NCBI GenBank assembly: GCA_030698405.1
Contig: JAUYMU010000033.1
Span: 1-37,747 of the forward strand
Reading direction: 5' to 3'
DNA: 37,747 nt
DNA from: Bacteroidota bacterium
GTDB lineage: Bacteria; Bacteroidota; Bacteroidia; Bacteroidales; Prolixibacteraceae
Part shown: positions 19,200 through 36,432 of the stretch, one piece after another
Numbering within the stretch: the stretch's first letter is position 1
Layout of the letters: each line of letters opens with the position of its first letter
Program-made: the position numbers and the translations under genes
The notes under the pieces: generated by a model
Told to the model about the DNA's origin: nothing
Databases searched by the model: none
Seen by the model: the letters and a program-made list of their open reading frames with translations, nothing else

Positions 19200-19254
19200 T
19201 TCCTTTTTTTTATTGAGAAACAAAATTCATGGCTGTAAGTTACAGCGATTTTTC

Positions 19255-21885: not shown

Positions 21886-22069
21886 CTGCTTATGCTTTTA
21901 AAATAAATAATCATTGATGACAGGATGGTGTCGGCATCAGAAAGGTTGTCTGATGCAAAGATATTTATTTTGCACAATAACTTAACTTGAAGTGGGACGA
22001 GATTAATTGGCTACAGAAAAGGCAATGCATTCCGGCGTTGAAGCACTGCAAAGTCACCGAAGATCACGG

Positions 22070-25000
22070 TTACCTGACAATAATTTTCCGGCTCAACACA
22101 CTTCCATCGTTCAGAGTGATCCTCAACAAATATAGGCCTGAACCGGTTTGCGGAATTTCAATTTTCAATGCTGAACTTTGAGAATGAACCTGCAATCCTG
22201 AAACCTCCAACCCATTGGAATTGAATAGTGAAATGTGTGTAACCCGGACAGATCCTTTGAATTCAACATTGAGCACCCGTTCAGCAGGATTGGGATACAC
22301 GCGTAAAATAGGATCAATTTCAATAGTTTGGGCAAGGGTTGGCCAGCGGTTTTTAAGTTGTTCAATCTGGGAGGCCGGAATTTCAACGTTCCACAATTTT
22401 ACTTCATCGATACTTCCAATAAGTGCATACTGGGTTTCAACATTGTCCATCCTACCGATGGTGAGTGGTTTGGTTGAAGCCTGTATTGCTCCTGAAAATG
22501 CCTTAAAGGTATCCAGTACGCCATCGACATAAAGTTCCATTGAATAACCTGTATAGACCGCGGTTACATGGTAGTAGCGGTTGAGTTCAATAGGTGCAGC
22601 GCCATCGAGATCGGCCACGCCGGTGCTTGTTTTTACAGTCCAGCGGAATCGTCCTTCAGGAGTAATTGACAGCTTGTAACGCTGTTGCCACGAACCGTGT
22701 GAGATGATAAAACGTTCGGAACCCAATTGTTCGCATTTTGCCCAGCAACTCATGCTCACCGCATCAGCAAAATTCAGCTCCACATTGTTTTCGGTTGAAA
22801 TGATGTTTTGGCCGGAGGTAAACCTGTATGCCTTCGAGGAAGTTCCCCAGGAATCTTCTGTTTTTGTTGCTCCTGAAACGGTGGCATGAAACCGGTCAGC
22901 AACCGCATTCCGACTGTCAGAATCAAATGGATACCAGATCAGGGGAGCTTGAGCCGGAATACTTGTGTTTTTAGCAAGTGCGCCAGCCGATATGGTGGTA
23001 GAAAGCATTTCCTGATTGGTAACCAGTAAAGTGATCGTGGAGACTCCCGGAGTGTTTGTCGCCTGCCAGTTAACTGATTTTCCAGTGCTTTGGGCTAACA
23101 CTCCTGAAGAAACACTCCATGCATATTCGAGGATTTCTCCGGCAGCAGGTTCAGAAAGCGCTGTAAACGTGTTTGTTTTACCAGTTTCTGTATATTTTGA
23201 AGCGGATTGAATTCCGGTTACCACCGGCGGCCCCGAAATACGGTCAACCACCTTCAAATGCAACGTGTCTTCTGCTACCTGACCATTGGCAGTTATTCTG
23301 CATTTGAGTATTGGATTTGAGTTGATAACAGGTGCGGTGAGTTGAACCTGCGACTGGTTTTGGCCATCAATCAACTTGCCATCCATAAACCATTCAAAAT
23401 GAACCTGTGTGCCAGAGGGAATGTTTCCCGGCGTGCAATATGCTGTGAATATAGAATTGGTGAGAATTGGCGAATGATCGGTTGAAATTGATTTTATACG
23501 AAGGGTTTCGGAATAAGCGTATTGATAATGATAATCGAGGATGTCATTTCCGGCAAAAAGCTTTCCATCACGGGCTTCAGGAACCAATCCTGAAGTAAAA
23601 AGCCTGATCAGCCGGACTTCACCAGCCGGCACCGGCAATTGAATTGTTCCGGAAGCAGCCGGAAACAAAGTTGTTTCAGTAATGGCATCATAAACTCCAA
23701 ATGTGCCGGAAGGTATAACCACATCCACCAATTTGGCCTCATTTGCCGGGTTAAAATACAGGTACGAAACCAGTGAATTGTCACCGTAAAAGTCTGTTTT
23801 ATTGAGGTCGATCTGAAGGATTTCAGGAATATTGGTTGGTTGCACCACTGCTGCAAGATAGCCAACACTAGAACCGCTGTAAAGCGACAGGTTGGTGGCA
23901 GCCCAGCCGCCGCGAATAGCATCTCCGGTAACAAACGGAGTTTTTCCCTGCCATGTTTGTTTCATCGATTCATAGGGAATGCAGGCAGTCGGGTCGTTTG
24001 CCGATGCCCAATCGTATGAATCCTGTTGCGTTTGTGGAAAAGCACTCCAGTAAAACAAACGGCTGGCATTTGTCACATTCAGTATCCATTTGGCAATGAT
24101 GCGGGCGTAACGTTTGTCGTATTTGGGAAGTGGCGCCAATGCGGCTGCCTGTTGGAAACCATTCATTACAAAAGCATAATCGTTTCCGGCGTCGTTGGCT
24201 TCACCGATCAAACCTGAAACATCATATCCGCCCCAGGTTCCCACAATTGATCCCCATCCCCGAAGTGCGCCACGATCAAAGCACCAATCAAGCAGTTTCT
24301 GTAAAGGGTAACTGGTGGCTTCAACGGCATTCATGCGGGCAGCGGCAAGTGTACCGTAAGGCAACTGAAGTTCATAGGAAGGATTTGTTGTCATTCCGGA
24401 TAAAAAATCCAGGGAAAGCTGAGCGCCTTCAAAGTATTGCCGGTTTCCGGTTTCGAGGTAAGCATTGTAAAGCAACCAGGCAATGCTTCCGGCTGACTCG
24501 GGTTCCGGAACGCTTGTATTCAGCGGTAATCCTGTTTTCAGGTTAAAAGCCCGGTAATTCATATTGGGCAATGACCATGGAGTTGTTTTTCCACCCAATT
24601 GGTTGACACAATAGAGCCAACGATCGGCTACGGTGGTGAACTGAGTTTCAAATTCAGGAACAGAATTGGGATAAATAGAATTCAACTGGTAAAAGTAAAC
24701 ATTGGGCATAAGGTCGTACCACCAGTCGTGCCCCGAAGTGGTTGAGTAACTGTTCAGATAAACATTCTGCCCATTTTTCAGGTTGAAAAAGTCTTTGGCT
24801 TTGGCGACCCAGTTCGTGCCATTCTGGTTGCTTTTATCTATTCCTGAAAGTGAAGCTCCGACGATGGCCGGCATGATGTTAATCGCTTCAGCCTGATTGG
24901 AATGATTGTCAGCGCCAACATACGAATCAAGGAATAGCGGTGTATTGTCTGGATAGTTAAATTGTCCCGGAGTTCCCAAACGCGCCAAGGGTAAATATAG

Positions 25001-25186
25001 GCCGGTTTTGGTTGTGTTAAAGATATAACTGTCGTAATCGTGCGCCACCGTTTTCCAATCGCGAATAATTAGTGGAGAAGGGGTATCGGGCATTTTATCG
25101 ATCCGGGAAATACTCAGTTGCCCTGGTTGTGCAAAGGATAGCAGGGAAAAAATACAAAGTTGCAGGATAAGCAGATATCGGATCAT
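22070..25186 (-). CDS. Large secreted protein: unknown putative catalytic domain, Ig-like region, LamG domain, T9SS signal
   Basis: 1038 residues. A signal peptide (1-19, cleaved near SFA|QPG) precedes a ~530-residue domain (about 25-555) that is paralogous to the whole 31739-33460 lipoprotein. Shared blocks are MPDTPSPLIIRDWK, GIDKSNQNG, GHDWWYDLMPNV, LPYGTLAAARMNA, GGYDVSGL, NASRLFY and LYSGSSVG. Its helix-rich repeats suggest an alpha/alpha toroid as in many glycoside hydrolases or lyases, but I recognise no CAZy family. Next come an Ig/PKD-like region (about 560-735), a LamG/concanavalin-like domain (747-935) likely for sugar binding, and a T9SS C-terminal sorting domain (about 958-1038, YPNPAERVLNVEF to LSRKIIVR). 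It should be exported to the cell surface or medium. It may be the extracellular enzyme of this PUL. Confidence 0.85.
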   Translation of the reverse strand: MIRYLLILQLCIFSLLSFAQPGQLSISRIDKMPDTPSPLIIRDWKTVAHDYDSYIFNTTKTGLYLPLARLGTPGQFNYPDNTPLFLDSYVGADNHSNQAEAINIMPAIVGASLSGIDKSNQNGTNWVAKAKDFFNLKNGQNVYLNSYSTTSGHDWWYDLMPNVYFYQLNSIYPNSVPEFETQFTTVADRWLYCVNQLGGKTTPWSLPNMNYRAFNLKTGLPLNTSVPEPESAGSIAWLLYNAYLETGNRQYFEGAQLSLDFLSGMTTNPSYELQLPYGTLAAARMNAVEATSYPLQKLLDWCFDRGALRGWGSIVGTWGGYDVSGLIGEANDAGNDYAFVMNGFQQAAALAPLPKYDKRYARIIAKWILNVTNASRLFYWSAFPQTQQDSYDWASANDPTACIPYESMKQTWQGKTPFVTGDAIRGGWAATNLSLYSGSSVGYLAAVVQPTNIPEILQIDLNKTDFYGDNSLVSYLYFNPANEAKLVDVVIPSGTFGVYDAITETTLFPAASGTIQLPVPAGEVRLIRLFTSGLVPEARDGKLFAGNDILDYHYQYAYSETLRIKSISTDHSPILTNSIFTAYCTPGNIPSGTQVHFEWFMDGKLIDGQNQSQVQLTAPVINSNPILKCRITANGQVAEDTLHLKVVDRISGPPVVTGIQSASKYTETGKTNTFTALSEPAAGEILEYAWSVSSGVLAQSTGKSVNWQATNTPGVSTITLLVTNQEMLSTTISAGALAKNTSIPAQAPLIWYPFDSDSRNAVADRFHATVSGATKTEDSWGTSSKAYRFTSGQNIISTENNVELNFADAVSMSCWAKCEQLGSERFIISHGSWQQRYKLSITPEGRFRWTVKTSTGVADLDGAAPIELNRYYHVTAVYTGYSMELYVDGVLDTFKAFSGAIQASTKPLTIGRMDNVETQYALIGSIDEVKLWNVEIPASQIEQLKNRWPTLAQTIEIDPILRVYPNPAERVLNVEFKGSVRVTHISLFNSNGLEVSGLQVHSQSSALKIEIPQTGSGLYLLRITLNDGSVLSRKIIVR

Positions 25187-25565
25187 GGAGGGAGTTTATT
25201 TAATTTACAATTTAAAGATTTACAATTTACAATTGAAGGGCGATTCGGTTCCATCCGAAAAAAGGCGCGAGCTTTGAATTGGATTTTACCGCGGACGTGA
25301 ATGATTTGTAATTCCTTCCGTTGCCTAAAGGCAAACGGCAAAGGATAATGCATTGAATGAAAGAGTGTGTTGATCAGAGCTTTATCCTTTGCCGTCACAT
25401 TTATGTGACGGACATAAAATTGCCCATTCTTCCGGGCTTTAGCCCAATCATTTTCTTTCAGCAAAAAAAGGGGGAGGCTCAAGTTTCCACATCACCGATG
25501 CAGAAATCATTGAGCCTTCCCCTTTAAAATAGTAAATAGTACATCGTTAAATTGTAATTACTTGC
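25187..25565. other. 379-base intergenic stretch with REP-like hairpins
   Basis: No gene is seen. The only structure is the hairpin cluster at 25318-25446, listed separately, plus A+T-rich leader sequence before the large secreted protein gene. Confidence 0.6.
25318..25446. repeat. REP-like hairpin cluster A
   Basis: Three hairpins occur: CCGTTGCCTAAAGGCAAACGG followed by CAAAGGATA (25318-25347); TATCCTTTGCCGT leading into CACATTTATGTG (25383-25411); and CCGGGCTTTAGCCCA (25432-25446). The same words recur at 31575-31707 in another order. They look like non-autonomous palindromic elements spread by a REP-associated transposase elsewhere. Confidence 0.82.
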
Positions 25566-26849
25566 TTATGGTTTTTCGTCTACATAAAGTTTCGAAACCT
25601 GTCCATCAACCAAAGCGATGTTGTAGATTTTGAGCTCGTCAATAGATCCTTTAAAGTATCCAAGATTTGCAGCAGTTGTCCATTCCATGAAATTGGCAGC
25701 AAGCTCAGCATCAGTAGCAACACCACCAATAATAAACGGTTGAGGACTTGGGGAAGTAAGGGTTTGAGTCAGTGGTCCAATGCCTTTATTGGCTTCTGTC
25801 CATGTTTTGGTAAGAGTACCATTCACATAGAACTTCAATTCTTTGCTCGTTGCATTCAATGTTACAACAACATGATTCCAAACATTAATTTTTACAGAGT
25901 TATCTGTTTCATTATCGGCATCAACAATACCACCATTAACCTTCTTAAAAGTAAAGAATGGCTTGCCACCGTCCTGAATCTGCAATTTGTATCCGGTCCA
26001 GTAATTTTGTGAGACGATGTAGTTGTCAGCTCTCAATGCAGTTGGTTTCACCCAAACTGAGATAGTCAGATTAGCAGGAAGAAATGCTGTTGTATAAGGA
26101 ACTTCAAGATGAGCTCCGCCATCTAAAACGAGCGCTTTTCCACCTTTTACACCATCGCCCCAGGCTGGTGATTTGGAATTGGCACCCATAATAACTGCAT
26201 TCCCCGCTTTAAATGTTCCAACATGTTTGACTGTTGAAAAGGCAGTTGCTGTAGTTCCGGTTCCTTCGTCAAAATGCCAGCCGGCAGTCAGGTACAAAGC
26301 TTCATCAATAAAACCATAAATCTGCGTTCCAAAAGTTTTTTTGGCTGCGGTTAAATTGACGTTCAGATTGGTGATTTGTGCTGGAGTAAGTAGCGTTCCG
26401 GCAGCAGTTTTAACCGTTGCCAGGGTTGACTTAAAGTTGTCGATGGCCGTTTGAGGGTATGTCGCAGAAGTTGCGCCATTGGCAAGCGTTTCACTGGAAG
26501 TAATTAATGCGTAAAGCGCTGCATAGTCAGCCGTTCCATAAGAAGTCAGGGTGGCTGTGGCTGCATTTAAAGCTGATACCTGCGCATCAACTTCCGCCTG
26601 GGTAAGCGTGGTGGAAGCAGAAGCTGTTTTTACCGCAGCCAGGGTGGTTTTAAACGCATCAATTGCTGCCTGCGGATATACGGCAACGGTGGCAGAGGCG
26701 GAAAGCTGATCAGCCGCAGAAATTAACGCGGTCAAGCTGGTTTTGTCTCCAACCGGTTCATCTTTTTCACAAGAACCAAACATAAATGCTGAACTTACAA
26801 CAAGCATAAGGAGCATGGTACGAACTCTAAACAAATTTTTCGTTTTCAT
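25566..26849 (-). CDS. Surface lipoprotein with two FIVAR repeats and a LamG domain
   Basis: 427 residues with lipoprotein signal ending MFGSC (Cys27) and acidic EKDE after it, a pattern favouring surface export. Two FIVAR-type helical repeats (about 38-97 and 108-170) share YPQAAIDAFKTTLAAVKTA and YPQTAIDNFKSTLATVKTA. A LamG-like jelly roll follows (about 188-425), with GWHFDEGTGT, LTISVWVKPT and GSIDELKIYN. It lies 49 bases after susD, where SusE/SusF-like surface glycan-binding proteins usually sit, and probably helps to capture the polysaccharide. No catalytic motif is seen. Confidence 0.85.
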   Translation of the reverse strand: MKTKNLFRVRTMLLMLVVSSAFMFGSCEKDEPVGDKTSLTALISAADQLSASATVAVYPQAAIDAFKTTLAAVKTASASTTLTQAEVDAQVSALNAATATLTSYGTADYAALYALITSSETLANGATSATYPQTAIDNFKSTLATVKTAAGTLLTPAQITNLNVNLTAAKKTFGTQIYGFIDEALYLTAGWHFDEGTGTTATAFSTVKHVGTFKAGNAVIMGANSKSPAWGDGVKGGKALVLDGGAHLEVPYTTAFLPANLTISVWVKPTALRADNYIVSQNYWTGYKLQIQDGGKPFFTFKKVNGGIVDADNETDNSVKINVWNHVVVTLNATSKELKFYVNGTLTKTWTEANKGIGPLTQTLTSPSPQPFIIGGVATDAELAANFMEWTTAANLGYFKGSIDELKIYNIALVDGQVSKLYVDEKP

Positions 26850-26898
26850 AATGTTACTAATAAAGATTTATTGATATAAAATAATTGTATTGGTAATC

Positions 26899-28428
26899 TC
26901 AGGGATTTATAGCCTGGTTTGCATCTGATTCAGCCTGCGGTATTGGTAAATACCGTTTGGTTTCATAGTTGTAATCAGCTCCAAGCGCAGCTTCGGCAAC
27001 TGTTTTGCCCCAGCGGGTCAGGTCGAAATAACGGTGAAATTCCTGTGCCAGTTCAACCCTTCTTTCTTTTTGAATGGCTGTCCGGAGGAGGCTCTGATCT
27101 GTTGTTGTGATATCAGCCAGCAGATCATCGGGGAGAGTTCCGGCAAAGCTTGCACGGGCACGCTGCCTCACTTTATTGAGGTTGGCTTTGGCCTGTTCTG
27201 CATTGCTTGTTTCATTGTATGCTTCTGCCTTCATCAGTAAAACGTCGGCAAAGCGCAGATAAATATAATTGAGGTCGCCATCGCCTTTCAGCGAAGAAGA
27301 AACTTCGGAAAGCGGTTGCTGGTGTTTTTTTGTGAGGTAACCCGTGGGCGACCAACCGGCGCTGAAAAGATCATCGTTCAGCCAGGGTTGACCATCACGG
27401 CCAACAGAAGCATCAAGGCGCGGATCAACTTCGCCGGTAGCACTTTTCTCAAAAGCATCAACCAGACTTTGAGTTGGTGCATTGAAATAATAACCACCCT
27501 CGGTAGGAGGCGCAAACCACTGGTTCATTGCGTTTCCGGTGAACGGATTTTGTTCTGTCAATTGCTGAATTTCGAAAATTGATTCGCTGCTGTTTTCAAA
27601 AGCCAGCTTGAAATTATCGGCATAATCAGGTAAAAGGCTGTAAATTCCAAGGTCTTCAACTTGTTGAAAAAAGGTGATGGCTGCAGTCCATTTTTGCTGG
27701 TACAAACTTGCTTTTCCCGACATAGCCAACGCAGCGCCTTTGGTTACGCGGCCAATATCTGCTGAAGTATAAGAAACCGGTAAAACCGCGGCAGCTTCAG
27801 TTAAGTCTTTTTCAATCTGAAGATAAATGGCAGCGACTTCGCTCAACGGAACATTAATTGTTTCAGGAGTGATCTGGGGCAACAGTTTCAGCGGAACCTT
27901 TCCGAAAATATTAACAAGGTTGAAGTAACTGTAAGCCCTGATAAATTTTGCTTCGCCGATAATGCGGTTTTTCAGGCTTTCATCCATCGGAACTGAAGGA
28001 ACATTGGCAATTACATTGTTGGCACGGGCGATGGCTTCATAGGCAAATTTCCAGTAATTGCTGATCATTCCATTGGTTGAATTCGCGGTGAATTCATCGA
28101 TGTAGGTGATTTCAGCCTGATCGCCCGGATTACCGCCTTTAACAGCGTCATCGGAAGCAACAGCTCCAAATACCCAGATTACATTGTTCGCACTGGAAAA
28201 TGAAATTGCATGATACACTCCGTTTATAGCCTGAATGGCCTGTTTGTCGTTCTGGTAAAAGGTGTCGGTTGAGAAACTGCCTTTCAGGTTTTCGGTTAAA
28301 AAATCCTCACAGGAACTGAAAATGATCAGTGTCAAAACCAGCAGCATTGCTGTTTGTAGTTTCATTCTATAAGCTTTCATCATCTGATTTCTGAAAGTGT
28401 CTGTTATTTTGATTGAAATTCGTTTCAT
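26899..28428 (-). CDS. susD: SusD/RagB-family outer-membrane glycan-binding lipoprotein
   Basis: The SusD lid captures oligosaccharides over its SusC channel. The 509-residue frame has the family N-terminus CEDFLTENLKGSFSTDTFYQ, the TPR-like RIIGEAKFIRAYSYFNLVNIFG, LRFADVLLMKAEAYNE, and the C-terminal ERRVELAQEFHRYFDLTRWG. The lipobox is IIFSSC. The ATG at 28428, 11 bases after the susC stop, gives a long n-region; internal ATGs at 28380 or 28365 would give a more usual signal peptide (MKLQTAMLLVLTLIIFSSC), so the true start is uncertain. It is translationally close to susC. Confidence 0.95.
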   Translation of the reverse strand: MKRISIKITDTFRNQMMKAYRMKLQTAMLLVLTLIIFSSCEDFLTENLKGSFSTDTFYQNDKQAIQAINGVYHAISFSSANNVIWVFGAVASDDAVKGGNPGDQAEITYIDEFTANSTNGMISNYWKFAYEAIARANNVIANVPSVPMDESLKNRIIGEAKFIRAYSYFNLVNIFGKVPLKLLPQITPETINVPLSEVAAIYLQIEKDLTEAAAVLPVSYTSADIGRVTKGAALAMSGKASLYQQKWTAAITFFQQVEDLGIYSLLPDYADNFKLAFENSSESIFEIQQLTEQNPFTGNAMNQWFAPPTEGGYYFNAPTQSLVDAFEKSATGEVDPRLDASVGRDGQPWLNDDLFSAGWSPTGYLTKKHQQPLSEVSSSLKGDGDLNYIYLRFADVLLMKAEAYNETSNAEQAKANLNKVRQRARASFAGTLPDDLLADITTTDQSLLRTAIQKERRVELAQEFHRYFDLTRWGKTVAEAALGADYNYETKRYLPIPQAESDANQAINP

Positions 28429-28439
28429 GGTTCAGTAGA

Positions 28440-31400
28440 TTAAAAAGTGATGTCAAGTCCGAGCATAAAAGTCATTGCCGAAGGATAAGTTCCCCAGTCG
28501 ATACCGGCGGCGCGGTCGCCTTCGTTTTTGGAGTTGTCGCTAACGGTCATTTCAGGATCCAATCCTGAATATTTGGTCAGGGTAAGCAGGTTGGTGCCCG
28601 AAGCATATAACCGTACCTGCGACAATCCGATCACCTTCAGTGTTTTCTCCGGAATTGTATAACCGAGCTGAACGTTTTTCAACCTCAGGTAAGCGCCATC
28701 TTCCAAAAACCTGGACGAAGGCATCGCATTGTTCGATTTGGAAGTCCATGATGCCCTTGGCTGAGTATTGGAAGTTCCTTCTCCGGTCCATCGTTCATCA
28801 AAATAGCGCTGCGTAACGGTGAAGCCACGGTAAAAACCTTCAATGTCCTGATTCACCTGCGAATAGATTTTATTTCCATACACACCCTGGCCAAAAATGC
28901 TGATGTCGAAGTTTTTGTAGTTTGCTGCCAGATTGAATCCGCCGGTAAGCCATGGAATTGCACTGCCAAGATAGACCCGGTCGAGGTTGTCAATTGTTCC
29001 GTCAGGATTATTGTCCTTGTATTTTACATCGCCGGGGCGAATTTTATCTCCCTGAAATGATGATAGCAAAACATCGGTTTCATTCTGGAAAATACCCTCC
29101 ATCTCGAGCATGTAAAAAGACCCGATCGGATGCCCGACTGCTGTCTGGGTCGCATCGATACCCGATTCAACCCGTCCACCATAGAGTGGCGCTTCCAGCT
29201 TGAGCACTTCGTTGTGTACAAAAGCAATGTTTCCACCGATTGAATAACCCCAATCCTTCTTGTTTTTGCGGTAAGTTGCTTCAAGCTCAATCCCGTTGTT
29301 TAATACTGAACCGCTGTTGATCCAGGCAGCTTCGGCATATCCGGTTGATGGTGGATTGGATGCCTTTACCAGCATGTCTTCGGTTACTTTGTAATAATAG
29401 TCGATAGAAAATGCCAATGCACCTTTCCAAAATTCTGCATCCAAACCAGCATTGTACTGGTAGCTGGTTTCCCACCTCAGGTTTTCGTTTCCGAGGGCTG
29501 ATTGTGCATAACCGCTGTTCGAAATGTTCCCAAAAGCATAATTGTAATAGGGTGATATCCTGTCTTTATCGGCATAAAGGCCAACATCCTGGTTTCCGAC
29601 ACCACCATAGCCGGCGCGAAGTTTAAGGTTCGAAAGCCACGAAACATTCTTCAGAAATTCTTCCTGAGACAATACCCAGCCGGCTGAAAGGGAGTAGAAA
29701 GTTCCCCATTTGTTGTCGCCTGTAAACCTTGAAGATCCATCTCGTCTCAGTGTTCCCGACAAGTAGTATTTTCCTTTGTAATCGTAGTTTATTCTTCCGA
29801 AAAGCGAGGCCAGTGTTGAAGCATATTCATTTTGGCTGCTCATTTTGATCCCCAATCCGTTCCCGATATAAATCAGTTCCTTTTGTTCGACCGGAAAATC
29901 CATGTCGCTGGAATAAAGACCTTTTCCGCTGTTTTTAATGGCTTCGAACCCCAGCATAGCCGAAACGGTATGCGATTCACCGATTTGGGTGTCATAATTG
30001 AGCAGGTTATTCATCGATAGGTTTGCAATTTGCTCACTGCCAATATTCAGTCCGTTTTTGGCATTGATACGATCCAGCGTTCCCCAGGTAGGTGAAAAAC
30101 GGCGGCTGAACGAATTGCGGTAATCAACACCCACGTTGGTGGTAAATTTTAATTCAGGAGTTATTTTGGCAATGAAATAGGCCTTGCCCATATAACTGTC
30201 GTCCTTGCGGTTGTTGTCATTCAAAGCGCTCATGCCGATTGGATTGTAACCATCGCCCAGGAACGAATCATATTTCTGTGCACCAAAATATTCGGCAGGG
30301 CGGTCAACGAATCTTCCATCTTCAAACCGGATTGGAATAGCCGGATTGCGGAAGAATGCGTATCTGACGACACTTCCGCCATTGCCACCTGCGCCATCAC
30401 CCGAACTTCCAATCATGTCGTTGCTTGAAATTCCGGCGAGCATATTTACCCCGACCGTCAGCCATTTACTGGCTTCGGTATTGACATCAAGACGAATAGT
30501 TCCCCGGGTATATCCGCTTCCTTTTACAATTCCCTTCTGATCGAAAAGCGAAGTGGAAATCATAAAATTGGTCGTTTCATTTCCTCCTGAAAGTGAAATT
30601 TCGTGCGAATTGATCGGCGCCGGTTGTAGCAGCTCTTTCACATAGTTCACGTTGGAAAACTTCGCAGCATCATCAGGAGTAATCAGTCCACGGTGCAGCG
30701 ATTCGGGCAGAAAAGCATTGTCGTTGGTGGCTGCTTCATTGTAAATGGTCACATAATCGGTGGTATTGACCATCTTCGTGAGGTTGGTCGCCTGTTGAAA
30801 ACCCGTCTGTCCGCGATAAGTAACTTTGGTTTTACCCTTAACTCCTTTTTTTGTGGTAATAAGTACTACGCCGTTGTTGGCACGCGAACCATAAATGGCC
30901 GAAGCCGAGGCATCTTTCAGTACAGTAATATTTTCAATATCACCGGGCGAAAGAATTTTCAAAGCATCGCTGGTTGGTATTCCATCGACGATGTAAAGCG
31001 GGTCGTTGCTCGAATTGATTGAACCTGAACCACGGATACGAACCGAAACACCTTCACCGGGAGCGCCAGTATTTTGTGTAACCTGCACTCCGGCGGCACG
31101 ACCCTGCAAAGCTTGTGCGACATCCGAAACCGGCAATGCAGTAAGATCTTTGTTGTTTACTTTGGCAACAGCGCCCAGAACACTGCGCTTTTTTACAGAG
31201 CCGTATCCAATCACAACCATTTCATTCAGCAAAATATCCTCCGGAACAAGCTTTACATCAATCACTGTGCGATCGCCGGTAATTTGTTCTGACGGCGTGA
31301 AACCCATGTATGAATAGACAATTACCGATTCGGCAGTTAATTGATCCGATACCAGACGATACCTGCCATCGATATCGGTAATGGTGCCTGTGGTAGTTCC

Positions 31401-31532
31401 TTTGATCATAACCGCAACACCAATCAGGGTTTCTCCTGATTTGGAATCGCTTACAGTTCCTTCGACCGTACGCTGCGCAAATAGAGTTACAGTGAGCGAA
31501 ATCATCATCATTAATAATAGCAGTCGTTTCAT
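28440..31532 (-). CDS. susC: SusC/RagA-family TonB-dependent outer-membrane transporter
   Basis: SusC imports oligosaccharides across the outer membrane using TonB energy. The 1030-residue product has a signal peptide (1-19), a CarboxypepD_reg-like domain (about 22-105, GTVSDSKSGETLIGVAV, DIDGRYRL), the SusC hallmark LNEMVVIGYGSVKK, a plug with LQGRAAGVQVTQNTG and SGSINSSNDPLYIVDG, and a beta barrel ending TFMLGLDITF with terminal Phe. There is no extra N-terminal anti-sigma-interacting (STN) domain, in keeping with control by the hybrid two-component regulator instead of an ECF sigma/anti-sigma pair. Confidence 0.97.
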   Translation of the reverse strand: MKRLLLLMMMISLTVTLFAQRTVEGTVSDSKSGETLIGVAVMIKGTTTGTITDIDGRYRLVSDQLTAESVIVYSYMGFTPSEQITGDRTVIDVKLVPEDILLNEMVVIGYGSVKKRSVLGAVAKVNNKDLTALPVSDVAQALQGRAAGVQVTQNTGAPGEGVSVRIRGSGSINSSNDPLYIVDGIPTSDALKILSPGDIENITVLKDASASAIYGSRANNGVVLITTKKGVKGKTKVTYRGQTGFQQATNLTKMVNTTDYVTIYNEAATNDNAFLPESLHRGLITPDDAAKFSNVNYVKELLQPAPINSHEISLSGGNETTNFMISTSLFDQKGIVKGSGYTRGTIRLDVNTEASKWLTVGVNMLAGISSNDMIGSSGDGAGGNGGSVVRYAFFRNPAIPIRFEDGRFVDRPAEYFGAQKYDSFLGDGYNPIGMSALNDNNRKDDSYMGKAYFIAKITPELKFTTNVGVDYRNSFSRRFSPTWGTLDRINAKNGLNIGSEQIANLSMNNLLNYDTQIGESHTVSAMLGFEAIKNSGKGLYSSDMDFPVEQKELIYIGNGLGIKMSSQNEYASTLASLFGRINYDYKGKYYLSGTLRRDGSSRFTGDNKWGTFYSLSAGWVLSQEEFLKNVSWLSNLKLRAGYGGVGNQDVGLYADKDRISPYYNYAFGNISNSGYAQSALGNENLRWETSYQYNAGLDAEFWKGALAFSIDYYYKVTEDMLVKASNPPSTGYAEAAWINSGSVLNNGIELEATYRKNKKDWGYSIGGNIAFVHNEVLKLEAPLYGGRVESGIDATQTAVGHPIGSFYMLEMEGIFQNETDVLLSSFQGDKIRPGDVKYKDNNPDGTIDNLDRVYLGSAIPWLTGGFNLAANYKNFDISIFGQGVYGNKIYSQVNQDIEGFYRGFTVTQRYFDERWTGEGTSNTQPRASWTSKSNNAMPSSRFLEDGAYLRLKNVQLGYTIPEKTLKVIGLSQVRLYASGTNLLTLTKYSGLDPEMTVSDNSKNEGDRAAGIDWGTYPSAMTFMLGLDITF

Positions 31533-31574
31533 ATTGTCAGTTTTGATAGATTTTAATTAAGCTGTTTTAGATGT

Positions 31575-31707
31575 TATCCTTTGCCGTTGACTTTAGTCAA
31601 CGGGTTGAAGAAACATAAGAGTTCCGGGCTTTAGCCCATACTCCTGTGGCTAAAGCCAATAGCATGTTTCCATTTGATCCGTCAGCTGAAGCTGACGGCA
31701 AAGGATA
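31575..31707. repeat. REP-like hairpin cluster B
   Basis: The 133-bp block is bounded by inverted TATCCTTTGCCG and CGGCAAAGGATA. Inside are hairpins CCGTTGACTTTAGTCAACGG, CCGGGCTTTAGCCCA (31624-31638), TGGCTAAAGCCA (31647-31658) and CCGTCAGCTGAAGCTGACGG (31679-31698). The layout resembles a BIME or MITE. It lies between susC and the upstream lipoprotein gene and could affect transcript stability there. Confidence 0.85.
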
Positions 31708-31738
31708 GACTTCGATATATGACATTATTTCCATTTGG

Positions 31739-33460
31739 TTATTTATAAGCAATTACCACATTGCCGGCTTTTACTTTTGATCCCTCCGATGTCAGTTTTG
31801 TTCCGGAAGGAAGGACTACAACCAGTGCGGACTTTCCTGCCGGCAGCTTAATTTTCATCTTTCCTTCGCCTGCTTTTGCCAGGTATTTCTTCGAAACTAC
31901 ATCAAACAAGTCCACACTTTTTTCTGAAGAATAGGTTACTGTTGTATCATTTCCATAAGGATTATAATAGAGGTACTGCGGGTATTTGTTATCGGCATAA
32001 AAGTCGGTCACATTGCAATCGAGCGCCAGAATTCCTTCGACATCGGTTGTATTTACAATGGCGCCGAAAATTCCAACGATTGACGTACTGTAAAGGCTGA
32101 ACATGGTTTCTTTGGGCTGACCGGCTGTCCATTTGGGTCCGTCGCCGGTTGAGACGGGAGTGATTCCCTTCAATTCTGGTTTGTTGTAATCATCCACTTT
32201 ACGCAAACCTTCATAACCGATAATTCCCTGCGTCAGGTTTTTCAATTCAGGAAGAAGCTGGTGGGCATCGTCAACCTCATCAGGATAAAATAAACGGGAT
32301 GCATTGACCAGATTCAGCATGTATTTACCGATTGTTTGTGCGTACTGCGGTTCATATTTTACCATTGGCACCAATGGCCAGGCCATTGCCACTGAATTCA
32401 TAAAAAAAGCATATCCGCCTCCATCGGTAATACTTCCCTGAAGTCCGGAAACATCGTAATCGCCCCATTTTTCTGCAATCACACCCCAACCGTAACGACC
32501 TTCTTTGTTCTGGCAACCGTCAAACATCCAGTTCAGCAATTTGGTCACATCGTAACTGGTTCCCTGTTCAGCATTGAGCCGGGCGGCTGTATAAGTACCG
32601 AACGGAAGCAGCATTTCGTAAAAGCGGCTTTCTTTCTGGCTGAGCAAAGCATCGGTTGCAGTTTTTGCTCCATTGAGGTAGCGTTTGTCGCCGAATTTGT
32701 AATACGCTGAATACAATATCCAGGCATGTCCACCGGCAACATCCTGTTGCAGCGGAATGTGGTTAATCATGCCTTTCATCTGCGCATAATCGAAATAGGA
32801 ATAATCGTAATTCCCGTTCAGTACAGAGTCAGCTTTGTAGAATTGGTCAGCCACTTTCCGTTGAATAAATTCAGTATTTTCAACTTCAGGAAAAAGTGCT
32901 GCAACTCCGTAATACAGCACATTCGGATAAACATCGTACCACCAGTCGCGGCCATAACCACCACCGGCCATTGCCACTTCAGGATTGGTGTTGTTCATCA
33001 GAATATTCCAGTTGGTATCGCTGTTGAAATAGTTCTGAGACATTTTCGCATAGTTGAAACCATGCTGATTGGTTTTGTCAATTCCCATCAGCCCGGCACT
33101 GATCAGGGAATTGTAGGTGGTTAACGCTTCATGAAATTCACCGTTATTGTTTTTCGGTCCCTGACGGACATCACCAATCACGGTGTAAAGCCCGTAGGTC
33201 ACCTGATCTATGTTTCGTCTGGAACTGTCGAGCCAGATTAACGGTTCGTAAGAATCATCCGGAGTAAAATTGTAAACAAGGCTGTCGAACTGCATCGTTT
33301 TTTTCTTCCAGTCGATAATTTTCAGGGGTTGAGGCATATCCGGCATCTGTTCGATCCGAAGCAAAGAAGTCTGAACCACCGGTTCGCCCAATTGTGTGTT
33401 GCAGGAGAAGAATCCTGTGAGCAGGGCTAGAATTAGTATTTTAAGGAATCCGTTTTTCAT
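31739..33460 (-). CDS. PUL lipoprotein of unknown, probably catalytic, family (paralogue of the 1038-residue protein)
   Basis: 573 residues. The lipoprotein signal ends GFFSC (Cys20). The mature part matches residues ~25-555 of the protein at 22070-25186 block by block: MPDMPQPLKIIDWK, GIDKTNQHG, GRDWWYDVYPNV, LPFGTYTAARLNA, GDYDVSGL, YAFFMN, NASRLFY, CNVTDFYADN and LYYNP. Conserved Asp, Trp and Tyr clusters (DWWYD, GDYDVSGLQG) are the kind that line sugar-binding clefts of alpha/alpha-toroid enzymes. I do not recognise the family. It lacks the Ig, LamG and T9SS parts, so it likely works anchored in a membrane, in the periplasm or on the surface. Its place between susC and the sugar transporter suggests it acts on the imported oligosaccharide. 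Confidence 0.82.
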   Translation of the reverse strand: MKNGFLKILILALLTGFFSCNTQLGEPVVQTSLLRIEQMPDMPQPLKIIDWKKKTMQFDSLVYNFTPDDSYEPLIWLDSSRRNIDQVTYGLYTVIGDVRQGPKNNNGEFHEALTTYNSLISAGLMGIDKTNQHGFNYAKMSQNYFNSDTNWNILMNNTNPEVAMAGGGYGRDWWYDVYPNVLYYGVAALFPEVENTEFIQRKVADQFYKADSVLNGNYDYSYFDYAQMKGMINHIPLQQDVAGGHAWILYSAYYKFGDKRYLNGAKTATDALLSQKESRFYEMLLPFGTYTAARLNAEQGTSYDVTKLLNWMFDGCQNKEGRYGWGVIAEKWGDYDVSGLQGSITDGGGYAFFMNSVAMAWPLVPMVKYEPQYAQTIGKYMLNLVNASRLFYPDEVDDAHQLLPELKNLTQGIIGYEGLRKVDDYNKPELKGITPVSTGDGPKWTAGQPKETMFSLYSTSIVGIFGAIVNTTDVEGILALDCNVTDFYADNKYPQYLYYNPYGNDTTVTYSSEKSVDLFDVVSKKYLAKAGEGKMKIKLPAGKSALVVVLPSGTKLTSEGSKVKAGNVVIAYK

Positions 33461-33482
33461 TTTTCTATTTTTTTAATTATTT

Positions 33483-33555
33483 ACCACATAGGCACATAGG
33501 TCACATAGTTTTTTTATTTTTATTTTTTCCTATGCGTTCTATGTGTCTATGTGGT
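33483..33555. repeat. Inverted repeat of ACATAG words with an A/T-rich loop
   Basis: ACCACATAG, CACATAG and CACATAG on the left pair with CTATG, CTATGTG and CTATGTGGT on the right across a T-rich loop. It may terminate or attenuate transcription between the MFS gene and the following lipoprotein gene, or be a dispersed element. Confidence 0.75.
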
Positions 33556-33562
33556 TTTTCAT

Positions 33563-34825
33563 CTATTTTGTTTCTTTAGCTTCAGAATATGAATCTTTCA
33601 TGATGTTTTTAGCCAGAGGGATAGAAAGCATTTGAAGTACTGCCACGATAATTAGCGAGTACCGAAGTGCAAAGCTTTCTGAAACGTAGAATGCGAAGAA
33701 GATGAATAATCCCAGTCCGCCAACCCTTCCGGCATATAGGCCAAACTCATGGTTGAGGATATAGGCGTACTGATTGCGGTTTTCGCGTTTCGAAACCACA
33801 TCAATCACCTTCATCATAATCGGATAATAGGCCAGATCGTGCAATGGCTGAAAGAATACCTTGCACAGTACAAATACCATTACTCCGAACATGGACAATT
33901 CGATGCCGTTAACAACTGTTCCGATCAGGAAAAGTGTAATGCCAAATCCGAAAATTAGAATGCGGTGTTTGGGTTTGGCGAAGCGGCCTAACAGATAAAT
34001 CAGAATGGCAGTCAATCCGCCGCTGATTCCCTGAATAAGGCCAAGCGAACCTTCCTGCCCCACATATTTCATAATCAGCATTGCCGGCGCGGTTACCAGA
34101 AATCCCTGAACAAGTCCCTTCAGGAATGCAAGTAATATCTGTTTGTTCCAAAGGCGATCGAAGCGGAAATAGAGAAAGTCTTTCTGAACCGGGTTTTCGA
34201 ATTTGCCACGGGCCAGTGAAATAACGGCCAGTATGGTGATCACAAAAACAAAGATTGTTACAATTTGATAGCCTTTATAAATGTCAAATACGATTCCGAG
34301 TATTTTCATCCCATCAATAGAGGCCAGCAAAGCGCCTATGGTCAATGGAATGGTAATGTTAGCGATGGTGAAGAAGAACGATTCGAGCCCGAAAAAGTAG
34401 TTCCGGTTTTCATCATTGGTGGTATTAAGCGCCATCAGGTAGCGGTTGGTCCAGAAAAATCCGGCAGATGCGCCAATCATGGTTCCTGAAACGATCAGTC
34501 CAAAAAGTTTTATGTCTTTTACAAACATCATTGCCACCATCGACACACCACTCAACAGAATGCCAAAACTATACAGATGTGCAACTTTGAAACTCTTCAG
34601 CAAAAATCCGTTTGTCAGCGAAGTGATGATGATGCCCGTGTACATAGCGACCTGAAAAATGGCCACATAACTCGTATCGGCAAAATAGCGCATGATGTAG
34701 GCTGCCATAAATATCTCGACAACAGGCAAAACCAATGCGTAAAGCATGTTGGTAATGAGCAATACCCGCATGTTGTGGGGCATTGAAAGGAAAAAACGAA
34801 ACTCGGCAGTCAGTTTTGCTATCAT
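33563..34825 (-). CDS. MFS-family inner-membrane sugar transporter
   Basis: 420 residues with about twelve hydrophobic segments, for example VLLITNMLYALVLPVVEIFM, AIFQVAMYTGIIITSL and LFLIGTVVNGIELSMFGVMV, and a central cytoplasmic loop around KFENPVQKDFLYFRF. It fits the major facilitator superfamily. It begins 15 bases after the GH130 stop, and GH130-MFS pairs are common in Bacteroidota loci that import beta-mannosyl disaccharides for cytoplasmic phosphorolysis. The exact sugar is inferred, not shown. Confidence 0.85.
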   Translation of the reverse strand: MIAKLTAEFRFFLSMPHNMRVLLITNMLYALVLPVVEIFMAAYIMRYFADTSYVAIFQVAMYTGIIITSLTNGFLLKSFKVAHLYSFGILLSGVSMVAMMFVKDIKLFGLIVSGTMIGASAGFFWTNRYLMALNTTNDENRNYFFGLESFFFTIANITIPLTIGALLASIDGMKILGIVFDIYKGYQIVTIFVFVITILAVISLARGKFENPVQKDFLYFRFDRLWNKQILLAFLKGLVQGFLVTAPAMLIMKYVGQEGSLGLIQGISGGLTAILIYLLGRFAKPKHRILIFGFGITLFLIGTVVNGIELSMFGVMVFVLCKVFFQPLHDLAYYPIMMKVIDVVSKRENRNQYAYILNHEFGLYAGRVGGLGLFIFFAFYVSESFALRYSLIIVAVLQMLSIPLAKNIMKDSYSEAKETK

Positions 34826-34840
34826 TGCAGGAATTTGCTG

Positions 34841-35884
34841 TTAAATGAGTGTTGAAAGTATCTTTGAGATAGAGAGTTTGGCGCCACAAATCACTTCGTC
34901 GCTTGCACCGTAATACATGAAGATGTCGTCGCCTTTCACATAATGGCCGTTGGTAAATACTACATTTCCAAAAAATCCGGTTTGTTCGTAGGTTTCAATG
35001 GGTTCCATAATGGGTTCAACGCTGCGGGCAAGTACTTTTGAAGGATCGTTGATATCGAGCAACAATGCTCCCAGGCAATAGCGATGGTCGCTGTTGGCTC
35101 CGTGATAAATTTCGAGCCAGCCTTTTTCTGTCCTGATTGGAGCACCACCGGCTCCAACGCGTTTCGAATCCCAACTGTCTGGTCGCACAGTAGCTATGCA
35201 TTTGTGTTGCCCCCAGTGAATCAGGTCGGGCGATTCGGCCAGCCAGATATAGTTTCCACCTAGTTCAGGGCTGCTTGGGCGGTGCAATGCATAATATTTT
35301 CCGTTTATTTTTTCTTCGAAGAGGGCGCAATCCTTGTTATGAGGCGGGAAAATCATGCCTTTGCGGTCGAAAGTCTTCCAGTCTTTGGTACGAATTAATC
35401 CAACCCCAACTCCGAATTCAGAAACTTCGGTAAACGAAAGGCTAAACCCATCGCCCATGGTAGCTACACGGCAATCTTCAATGCCAAAAGTTTCGAGTTC
35501 GCCTTTGCCAAAAATTGGTGGATAACCCTCGGGTTCCGAGAAATGAATTCCGTCGTCGCTGCAAACCAATCGCAGGTATGAAAGAGTCGTCAGATAATCT
35601 TTCTTCTTGTAATTGATTACCCGCGGATCTGACGCATCCAGATCGGGATCATTCGTATCGAAACTGAGAATTTCGATATTTCCTTTACTATTATATACAG
35701 GGAAACTGATTTTGCCTTCAATCTGTTTGGGTCTTTCGGCAACGCGAAGCAGCAACCAGATTTTTCCTTCGAATTGAAAAACGCCCGGGTTTAGCAGGCA
35801 AAGAATTTCCATTCCTTCAATGCCGGGTTTCAGATCGGCAGGACGAATAAGCGGGTTCCGGGGGAATCGTTGTGCAATATCCAT
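34841..35884 (-). CDS. GH130-family beta-mannoside phosphorylase or mannosidase
   Basis: From the ATG at 35884 the enzyme has 347 residues, typical of GH130; the longer open frame to 36019 is unlikely because the extra 45 residues are unlike the family. There is no signal peptide, so it works in the cytoplasm. The five-bladed propeller motifs are seen: LLNPGVFQFEGKIWLLLRVA (about 30-49), SDPRVI, GIEDCRVA with Asp137 as probable general acid, NKDCALFEEKINGKYYALHR (183-202) and GWLEIYHGA. The NKDxALF and YHG segments resemble GH130 phosphorylases, which split beta-mannosides with phosphate to give mannose 1-phosphate, but a hydrolase cannot be excluded. It is paired with the MFS gene 15 bases downstream. 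Confidence 0.88.
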   Translation of the reverse strand: MDIAQRFPRNPLIRPADLKPGIEGMEILCLLNPGVFQFEGKIWLLLRVAERPKQIEGKISFPVYNSKGNIEILSFDTNDPDLDASDPRVINYKKKDYLTTLSYLRLVCSDDGIHFSEPEGYPPIFGKGELETFGIEDCRVATMGDGFSLSFTEVSEFGVGVGLIRTKDWKTFDRKGMIFPPHNKDCALFEEKINGKYYALHRPSSPELGGNYIWLAESPDLIHWGQHKCIATVRPDSWDSKRVGAGGAPIRTEKGWLEIYHGANSDHRYCLGALLLDINDPSKVLARSVEPIMEPIETYEQTGFFGNVVFTNGHYVKGDDIFMYYGASDEVICGAKLSISKILSTLI

Positions 35885-36019
35885 TGGTAGTTTTGTTTTA
35901 GTTGCAGCAAAGCTACGTTCCAATGAACAGAACCTATGTCCGCCCCGTTCCCGATCTTGTCCGGTATAGTACAAATGAGAGTAAATTTTGAAGAAATCGC
36001 TGGTTTTCAGGAAAAACAT

Positions 36020-36432
36020 ATCCTTCCGGAGGTAATTTTTTTTCTAAACATGGAGATTGTTCCGGAGTAAAAACGTTTGGTTCTAAAACGTTTTGATGGG
36101 TAATATTTTTAATTGTACATCATAACCGCACAAAAAAAATAATAGAACGCGGATTTTACGCGGGTTTAGCGGATGGAAAGCGGATTAATATTCCAATCCC
36201 GAGTGCTCGGGATGGAATGGATTCAAAAAAAGACAAATGGGATAATGGATTGTCAATATTTTTATAAGCGTTTCTTTAGAAAATCCTCCCGACGTGTCGG
36301 GATTATAATCAGCTTTAATCCGCTGGATCATCTTTAATCCGCGTTCCATTGTTTTTTTGTTTTCTATTAGTATTTCCCAATTATTTGTGGGTACACGTTA
36401 GCAGCCACAGGCAGGGGGGTGAATTGTGAATA
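36020..36432. other. Intergenic region between regulator and GH130
   Basis: No gene is seen. It holds repeat copy 2 (36105-36341) and TGTGGGTACACG-like sequence (36386-36397), also found beside copy 1. GGTTCTAAAACGTTTTGA lies at about 36079. The PUL promoter for GH130 should be here but no clear TAnnTTTG element was found. Confidence 0.55.
36105..36341 (+). repeat. ~237-bp dispersed repeat, copy 2
   Basis: This is the reverse complement of 105-342, with few mismatches over its whole length, including the same CCCGAGtgCTCGGG hairpin. It lies between the 3' end of the regulator gene and the GH130 gene. Confidence 0.85.

Follow-up and report, generated by a model that had tools for sequence, protein, structure and literature searches.

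Analysis of a stretch of DNA from a Bacteroidota bacterium of the Prolixibacteraceae (GCA_030698405.1, contig JAUYMU010000033.1, positions 1 to 37,747 of the forward strand; hereafter the window, 37,747 nucleotides) revealed two paralogous proteins of one unrecognised family, encoded in a PUL together with a GH130 enzyme of the beta-1,2-mannoside phosphorylase type. We hypothesize, at about even chances, that the pair act as depolymerases in a PUL directed at a glycan containing beta-1,2-mannosides, and that they represent an as yet unrecognised family of glycoside hydrolases whose two branches diverged long ago.

The paralogous pair and its PUL

The first protein, a lipoprotein of 573 residues (31739..33460, minus strand), is assigned to the L-type branch of the family by its ORF and paralogy, a structure model and conserved columns, and the second, of 1038 residues (22070..25186, minus strand), to the T9-type branch by its ORF, Pfam matches, paralogy and branch-specific columns. 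In BLASTP they share 192 of 562 aligned positions (34% identity, 288 bits, E 3e-90); in this alignment, residues 30-572 of the lipoprotein are paired with residues 23-552 of the T9SS protein. The two ORFs are therefore placed and related as a previous sequence-only reading had described them, and the shared blocks that it quoted (DWWYD, YDVSG and others) fall inside the aligned region. The T9-type protein is composed of an N-terminal family module (residues ~20-555), an untyped middle, a LamG domain (Laminin_G_3 at 793-941, E 2.9e-22) and a T9SS sorting tail (Por_Secre_tail at 963-1037, E 2.9e-11). The N-terminus of the 573-residue protein (...LLTGFFSC) is lipobox-like, and its lipid Cys column is kept in 54 of the 58 L-type rows of alignment A1 and is a gap in all 17 T9-type rows; a crude lipobox pattern matched only 38 of 107 L-type rows, and another version 64 of 107, since it misses endings like YSC. 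The proposed occurrence of an exported LamG form and a lipoprotein form in one PUL thus holds, but the location of the lipoprotein is more probably periplasmic than on the cell surface.

The other genes of the cluster, all on the minus strand, encode a SusC-like TonB-dependent transporter (28440..31532), identified by its sequence and its conserved place in related loci, a SusD-like glycan-binding lipoprotein (26899..28428; SusD_RagB, E 3.2e-37), a LamG-domain lipoprotein with an acidic stretch following the lipid Cys, presumed to bind glycan at the surface (25566..26849; Laminin_G_3, E 2.9e-21), and an MFS transporter, presumed from its recurrent gene order to import the released oligosaccharide across the inner membrane (33563..34825; MFS_1, E 1.3e-12). 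They are followed by the GH130 gene (34841..36019; Pfam E 1.3e-42), whose true start is probably near 35884, since homology begins only at Met46, and by the truncated gene of a hybrid two-component regulator, of which only the C-terminal part lies within the contig (36433..37747; HATPase, receiver and AraC-type HTH by Pfam). The cluster thus unites the SusC/SusD pair, regulator, transporter and carbohydrate enzyme that define a PUL. As previously suggested, no known depolymerase was recognised among its scanned proteins; GH130 was the only glycosidase found, with no alpha-mannosidase and no uronate-handling gene. Since elsewhere Pfam was applied to chosen neighbours only, this statement on glycosidases is confined to the PUL of the window.

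Sequence relationships, predicted fold and invariant residues

The proposal of an unrecognised family agrees with the profile searches, in which the window's proteins gave no cut-off-passing Pfam or NCBIfam match to the shared domain: the best Pfam score in the two was 12.7 bits (CGLA_C, cut-off 27), and the lipoprotein had no NCBIfam match. None of 20 further members scored singly exceeded a curated cut-off within the shared domain, and no credible relative of it was found among the sequences of 252,289 PDB entries. When 75 members were surveyed against Pfam with E values up to 1 allowed, 15 families were matched by at least one of them. C5-epim_C was matched weakly by 39 of the 75, with a best E of 2.4e-6 in a protein outside the 20 that may, by extrapolation, pass the 23.3-bit cut-off. 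Among the 20, ten matched it at E up to 0.1, the best with 19.4 bits. These matches are short, spanning ~30-60 of the 188 profile positions in the vicinity of residues 213-281, roughly a single helical hairpin, and hhalign against D-glucuronyl C5-epimerase, represented by three homologues only, gave a probability of 2.2. We take the matches to reflect similarity of toroid repeats more probably than kinship with C5-epimerases, and keep a different chemistry as a lead.

The shared domain was modelled confidently (pLDDT 94) as an alpha-helical toroid with a C-terminal beta domain. The predicted toroid spans residues 28-492 of the L-type protein (31985..33379, minus strand) and 451 residues of the T9-type protein (23774..25126, minus strand; pLDDT 94.0). 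By structure prediction, the family would have a toroid of a kind common among glycosidases; the sequence-only reading had suggested a comparison with alpha/alpha-toroid hydrolases. The resemblance to GH127, GH76, GH88 and 2-epimerases is only loose: among the matches listed for the toroid, which include GH76 mannanases, MmpH, GH88, GH47 alpha-mannosidases and 2-epimerases, TM scores stayed under 0.6 at 8-14% identity. A viral fold library gave no match at E 0.001 or better. The first Foldseek matches of the whole L-type model were the beta-L-arabinofuranosidases of GH127/GH146 (HypBA1, BT3674; E 2.5e-7), which also have a toroid followed by beta domains. However, TM was ~0.35 with an rmsd of ~14, and hhalign of alignment A1 with 19 GH127 homologues gave a probability of 4.7, against 19.0 for SusD, an unrelated control whose alignment begins in the signal peptides. 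The nucleophile of GH127 is a Zn-bound Cys, whereas no Cys column is conserved in 98% or more of the 158 aligned family rows, and membership in these families was discarded.

Toroid folds also occur in enzymes of other chemistry, and a 2-epimerase, isomerase, C5-epimerase or polysaccharide lyase must be considered. The fold matches listed include 2-epimerases of N-acetylglucosamine and of cellobiose as well as unsaturated glucuronyl hydrolases. The GH88 enzymes and the N-acylglucosamine and cellobiose 2-epimerases have toroids of similar size (TM by target ~0.4-0.5 among the matches listed), and the C5-epim_C matches point in this direction as well. Identity to GH88 and the 2-epimerases is however ~10%, and their chemistry is different; 2-epimerases depend on a conserved His, whereas the family has no universal His column, His occurring in at most 108 of 158 members at any position. 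The C5-epim_C signal, below cut-off in all 20 singly scored members and confined to about one hairpin, also speaks against this possibility. We regard it as very unlikely, and the lyase option of the sequence-only reading is likewise disfavoured, because there is no universal His column and no recognised uronate-handling gene among the scanned PUL proteins.

As judged from the alignments, the family is old and has two branches, the L-type lipoproteins and the exported T9-type proteins. A third lineage, represented by locus L115, is 38% identical to the lipoprotein. All 158 members, L115 included, have E111, E282, E417 and D440, and several aromatic residues are likewise invariant. The branches differ at other positions: all 108 L-type rows have D240 and W444, and all 49 T9-type rows have E240, E343 and a gap at 444. 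The family thus has the conserved acidic residues that had been expected, although those proposed as catalytic are less conserved. The Asp of DWWYD is present in 157 of 158 members (Thr in the divergent L115). Of the two Asp positions in GDYDVSG, the first is occupied by Gly in the T9-type protein of the window itself, and the second has Asp in 144 of the 158 members and Glu in 13. Being more conserved than these, E111, E282, E417 and D440 appear to be the better catalytic candidates.

The invariant residues also bear on whether the shared domain is catalytic, since the pair could instead be glycan-binding proteins, one exported and one periplasmic. PULs often contain additional binding lipoproteins, and the T9-type protein carries a LamG domain. 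Nevertheless, four acids and several aromatics invariant in every member fit, in our judgement, an active site better; moreover, the PUL already has SusD and a LamG lipoprotein, and its scanned proteins revealed no further depolymerase. A binding role is therefore improbable, and we retain the interpretation of the pair as putative enzymes.

The GH130 partner and the probable glycan target

The family is closely linked to GH130. Where at least 6 kb was available on both sides, GH130 was present in the fetched stretch for 56 of 57 family ORFs shorter than 800 residues, among which are a few T9-type ORFs truncated by contig ends, and for 9 of 9 ORFs of 800 residues or more; when all 117 loci are counted, contig-cut ones included, 97 have it. 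In one genome of the same genus the block of MFS, lipoprotein, SusC, SusD, LamG and T9-type genes is missing as a unit, with GH130 and the flank retained. The reverse does not hold. At E 1e-60 the window-type GH130 was found in 26 genomes of the phylum (in three at only 38-47% identity), 16 of them without a strong family match, so GH130 was rejected as a marker of the family. Fifteen GH130 loci outside the family clusters (13 from genomes without the family and two extra copies from family-bearing genomes) had neither a family member nor such an MFS gene. Ten window-type GH130s read among 41 relatives, 81-100% identical, came from family genomes in nine cases and from another genome in one (G1120, L210); of 30 GH130 loci fetched, L184 and L201 are of other types (28-31% identical).

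The GH130 of the window shares 256 of 346 positions (74%, 603 bits) with Uhgb_MS, a beta-1,2-mannoside enzyme whose entry 9erh describes, in its title, a complex with a 1,2-beta-ma... ligand, and it scored 348 bits with Lin0857, another beta-1,2 enzyme. Scores with beta-1,4 enzymes were lower (146 bits for TM1225 and 108 for the Ruminococcus beta-1,4-mannooligosaccharide phosphorylase), as were those with UHGB_MP (98.5 bits) and mannosylglucose phosphorylases (74 or less). In the third lineage, the GH130 beside the L115 member passes the curated model of the beta-1,2-mannosidase BT3780 (641.8 bits, cut-off 550), and the cluster contains a ROK sugar kinase where this enzyme should release free mannose. 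Locus L116, which has the T9-type alone, encodes two GH130s; for both, the closest relatives of solved structure are beta-1,2 enzymes, although at L116:4251-5153 the margin over the beta-1,4 enzyme TM1225 is small (172.2 against 156.5 bits). A Lys is named as the residue of beta-1,2 specificity in GH130 by PMC4599007. We located its position on the L115 homologue, 57 positions away from the catalytic Asp, rather than on the sequence of BT3780, and found it in 103-104 of 106 GH130s of family loci, depending on which of two alignments is used; it is Lys229 in the window's enzyme and Arg in TM1225. As a stand-alone marker this residue was set aside, since 9 of 18 unlinked GH130s, from relatives and of non-window type, carry Lys too (7 have Arg, 1 Glu and 1 Thr, several aligning poorly there).

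Given the proximity of the window's GH130 to Uhgb_MS and the third lineage beside a GH130 of the BT3780 model, the PUL probably targets a glycan containing beta-1,2-mannosides. The beta-1,4-mannan or N-glycan suggested by the sequence-only reading would be compatible with GH130 as a family, which includes beta-1,4-mannoside and Man-GlcNAc phosphorylases according to PMC8950772. However, the adjoining GH130 is of the beta-1,2 type, with 603 and 348 bits to beta-1,2 enzymes and no more than 146 to the others, and such a target is most improbable.

A more substantial alternative, still rather unlikely in our estimate, is that the family consists of alpha-mannanases or other alpha-glycosidases acting on a mixed-glycan backbone, for instance an alpha-mannan capped with beta-1,2-mannosides, and that GH130 only removes the caps. 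GH47 alpha-mannosidases and GH76 endo-alpha-1,6-mannanases are among the toroid fold matches listed, and the latter (BT2949, BT3792, Aman6), mannan-degrading enzymes known from Bacteroidota PULs, are toroid enzymes with TM scores among the better ones (0.54-0.59 by target; over all GH76 matches listed, 0.28-0.47 by query and 0.34-0.59 by target). Uhgb_MS appears in a listing of PMC8950772 as a mixed-linkage synthase that also uses alpha-1,2 acceptors, so the glycan could be such a capped alpha-mannan, and enzymes of the BT3780 type strip beta-1,2 caps from Candida mannan according to PMC4599007. The extra glycosidases present in some loci (GH13 in L112, L113 and L061; GH2 and GDE_C/GH94-like where the T9-type occurs alone) moreover point to a mixed glycan. 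On the other hand, the scanned proteins of the window PUL show GH130 alone, without an alpha-mannosidase, and none of the 75 surveyed members matched the GH76 model (Glyco_hydro_76) even at E up to 1. The family also differs from GH76 in its additional C-terminal beta domain, in sequence (~10% identity) and in the linkage, alpha in GH76 and presumably beta here.

Proposed route and its significance

Under our preferred reading of the pair as beta-1,2-mannoside depolymerases, the T9-type protein would leave the cell through the type IX system, stay attached by its LamG domain to the glycan or the cell surface, and cut the glycan extracellularly. The fragments would be imported by SusC/SusD, aided by the LamG lipoprotein, and trimmed in the periplasm by the L-type lipoprotein to beta-1,2-mannobiose or a similar product, which the MFS protein would move into the cytoplasm, where GH130 would convert it with phosphate to mannose 1-phosphate and mannose. 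Catalysis may take place at the toroid mouth, by a pair among E111, E282, E417 and D440, with the sugar possibly bound by the WWY stretch and W325/W332. Sequences and models establish the family, its fold class and two branches, the gene order, the type of GH130 and the invariant residues, whereas hydrolase activity, a beta-1,2 target for the family itself, the roles of the two forms and the site of the lipoprotein are inferred. It is possible, although we hold this more tentatively, that the proteins constitute the first family of polymer-cutting beta-1,2-mannanases, in which the exported branch is endo-acting and the lipoprotein branch releases beta-1,2-mannobiose.

The proposed route has a possible parallel. 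The endo-beta-1,2-glucanases of GH144 and GH162 are toroid enzymes acting on glucan that feed a phosphorylase for a beta-1,2-linked polymer. The analogy would lie in a toroid enzyme supplying a phosphorylase; their substrate is however a glucan, and they were not among the best 50 matches of either PDB fold search. The GH130 beta-1,2 enzymes act on the linkage that we propose here, and their relatives partner the family in its clusters, but they are five-bladed propellers unrelated to it (hhalign probability 0.1); BT3780 is described as exo-acting (PMC4599007).

Beta-1,2-mannosides are reported, in PMC4264767, from Candida mannan, from polysaccharides of Leishmania, Crithidia and Herpetomonas, and from some bacterial O-antigens and capsules. 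The enzymes described for them in the relevant passages of three studies are GH130 and GT108 phosphorylases, synthases and exo-mannosidases (PMC4264767, PMC8950772, PMC4599007). An endo-beta-1,2-mannanase was not found in the open-access literature searched; the "2-mannanase" of PMC12858847, PMC12394665 and PMC7562712 is the GH99 endo-alpha-1,2-mannanase. If our hypothesis is true, the family would provide a cutting tool for immunologically important beta-1,2-mannoside glycans and a function for a few hundred unnamed proteins, 232 relatives having been found in one scan. With the family present in 40 of the 393 genomes sampled from the window's order, together with a ready set of partners, it becomes directly testable which organisms consume beta-1,2-mannan and how, and the cluster would represent a complete beta-1,2-mannan route for Bacteroidota of many habitats.

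Extent and novelty of the shared family

The sequence-only reading had described a 573-residue lipoprotein (31739-33460, minus strand) and a 1038-residue T9SS protein (22070-25186, minus strand) as relatives, and both reading frames are present at these coordinates. The two proteins align by BLASTP at E 3e-90, with 34% identity over 562 columns, residues 30-572 of the lipoprotein matching residues 23-552 of the T9SS protein; their family modules are true paralogues. Beyond its module the T9SS protein has a middle part without a match, followed by a LamG domain and a T9SS tail. A search of the window's own genome with the lipoprotein found only these two members.

In the window's proteins the shared domain passed no Pfam or NCBIfam cut-off, and a sequence search of the PDB returned no credible relative. 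The commonest weak profile match was C5-epim_C, seen in 39 of 75 members at E up to 1; the best of these (E 2.4e-6) may pass the cut-off, and in 20 members scored singly the C5-epim_C match reached at most 19.4 bits against a cut-off of 23.3 and spanned about one hairpin. Searches of an open-access library turned up neither an endo-beta-1,2-mannanase nor any account of the shared-domain family. We rate the shared domain as a new family inside a known kind of system, judged against Pfam, NCBIfam, the PDB and that library.

Scanning genome contigs with the lipoprotein, the search that reached beyond the phylum, turned up 242 candidate stretches, and 232 of these were relatives; the best 80 of the 232 were retained, all of them Bacteroidota by record title. 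Profile searches with the 75-row family alignment as query detected members at E 1e-30 or better in 40 of the 393 order genomes, at E 1e-30 in 9 of the 395 class genomes and at E 1e-20 in 12 of the 41 close relatives. Among 395 phylum genomes 24 matched at E 0.001, or 19 after discounting five short matches near E 1e-4.

Predicted fold and candidate catalytic residues

Models of the lipoprotein (pLDDT 94.4, pTM 0.93) and of the T9SS toroid alone (pLDDT 94.0, pTM 0.94) showed alpha hairpins in the toroid part and, in the whole protein, a beta domain after it. The first fold matches of the whole lipoprotein model were GH127/GH146 (E 2.5e-7, TM about 0.35), while the toroid alone matched GH76, 2-epimerases, GH88 and MmpH at about 10% identity, TM by target reaching 0.59; neither search found a close family. 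Because of the fold matches and the helix pattern, the family module is read as a predicted toroid, and many glycosidases share the modelled fold class.

All 158 rows share four candidate catalytic residues, E111, E282, E417 and D440. D172, from the DWWYD block, is kept in 157 of the 158, being Thr in the member from locus L115, and D336 is Asp in 144 of 158 and Glu in 13. In the lipoprotein model E111, D172 and E282 sit just ahead of helices 112-124, 173-189 and 284-299, a placement that would fit one rim of the toroid.

Gene cluster and linkage of the GH130 partners

The gene order regulator, GH130, MFS, short lipoprotein form (L-type), SusC, SusD, LamG lipoprotein and long exported form (T9-type) was found repeatedly in many loci; others have SusC/SusD elsewhere or are cut by a contig end. 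With at least 6 kb on each side, GH130 lay in the stretch for 56 of 57 family ORFs below 800 aa (L018 being the exception) and for 9 of 9 longer ones, and it was present in 97 of 117 loci overall, counts that are not independent trials since the loci are related to one another; L117 (flanks of 5.3 and 11.4 kb) and other contig-cut loci have none. GH130s of the window type also occur without the family: 16 of 26 phylum genomes with a GH130 match have no strong family member, and 15 GH130 loci outside family clusters, of or near the window's type (L214-L228), lack both the family and that MFS. In a same-genus genome (locus L210), the DNA that in the window lies downstream of the T9-type gene comes within about 40 bases after GH130; MFS, L-type, SusC, SusD, LamG and T9-type genes are all missing, the six-gene block at window 22013-34845 being absent as a unit while GH130 is present.

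In another locus, GH130 and MFS are separated by an ORF of 826 aa that has no Pfam match (L212:15131-17608). The intergenic stretch upstream of the window GH130 (36130-36340) holds short repeats and CCCGA...TCGGG palindromes. Between 21800 and 37747, terminator-like sites outnumber those in shuffled sequence (29 vs 17.7, sd 3.2), and promoter-like sites are not enriched (29 vs 28.7).

The window GH130 (34841-36019, minus strand) is identical to Uhgb_MS at 256 of 346 positions, and one PDB entry of Uhgb_MS names, in its truncated title, a complex with "1,2-beta-ma..."; the window enzyme's second-closest reference is Lin0857, a beta-1,2-mannobiose phosphorylase according to an excerpt of PMC8950772. 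The GH130 adjoining L115 passes the curated cut-off for the BT3780 beta-1,2-mannosidase; in that cluster (G379:C8) this mannosidase-type enzyme replaces the phosphorylase and a ROK kinase is present, as expected if the GH130 there makes free mannose. L116, a T9-only locus, has two GH130s of other subtypes that are nearest to beta-1,2 enzymes, TM1225 following close behind for one of them. Lys199 of BT3780 confers beta-1,2 specificity (excerpt of PMC4599007). The matching position, located in the L115 homologue by counting 57 residues from the catalytic Asp, holds Lys in 104 of 106 family-linked GH130s and Arg in TM1225; because 9 of 18 other GH130s of relatives also have Lys (a control covering 26 of 30 fetched loci), this Lys serves as a supportive marker only.

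The main rival to a beta-1,2-mannoside glycan as substrate is an alpha-mannan capped with beta-1,2-mannose. Further glycosidases in certain loci (GH13, GH2, GDE_C/GH94-like) point to a possibly mixed natural glycan. At L112:7255-8880, L113:10877-12538 and L061:17531-19150 the cluster contains or adjoins a GH13 gene of alpha-amylase type, about 545 aa long, which may point to alpha-glucose in the glycan or to a neighbouring operon.

Elsewhere in the window, one frame (16797-19223, minus strand) joins polyphosphate kinase 1 to an ArsC/Spx-like C-terminal domain at residues about 700-806 (arsC model, 106.4 bits vs a cut-off of 106.05). Of 13 genomes in the genus, 12 carry the fusion at nearly full length, although one of the 12 has an internal stop, and the thirteenth match is at a contig end; in three genomes of the order (G398, G399 and G401) the two parts are at separate places.

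Two branches and their cellular place

A quick tree built on 68 rows, left after thinning the 158 at 75% identity, put the long exported and short lipoprotein forms on separate branches (SH-aLRT support 100 each), with the short L115 member alone on a long branch and the contig-cut L134 member grouping with the long forms. All 158 rows comprise 108 L-type, 49 T9-type and L115. H110, Q238, D240, G349 and W444 are identical in 108 of 108 L-type rows, while 49 of 49 T9-type rows have E240, E343 and a gap at 444; the 12 short-looking T9-type rows all reach an end of the sequence stretch. Two copies occur in 25 of the 40 family-bearing genomes of the order, one of each form in 24 of the 25 as judged by frame length, and in one group of genomes, most of them from the rumen, a second L-type protein occupies the second slot.

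According to the abstract of PMC5080379, the surface-export signal of Capnocytophaga lipoproteins is K-(D/E)2 or Q-A-(D/E)2, and other Bacteroidetes carry comparable ones. By a crude pattern, the seven positions after the lipid Cys hold on average 0.77 acidic residues in L-type proteins (n=103, possibly including a few contig-cut T9-type), 2.22 in SusD (n=79) and 2.93 in LamG lipoproteins (n=54); in the window the L-type protein reads CNTQLGEP and the LamG lipoprotein CEKDEPVGD. This scarcity of acidic residues suggests that the L-type lipoprotein probably faces the periplasm, and such a location would lead to a two-step scheme in which the T9-type protein would act outside the cell and the L-type protein inside.
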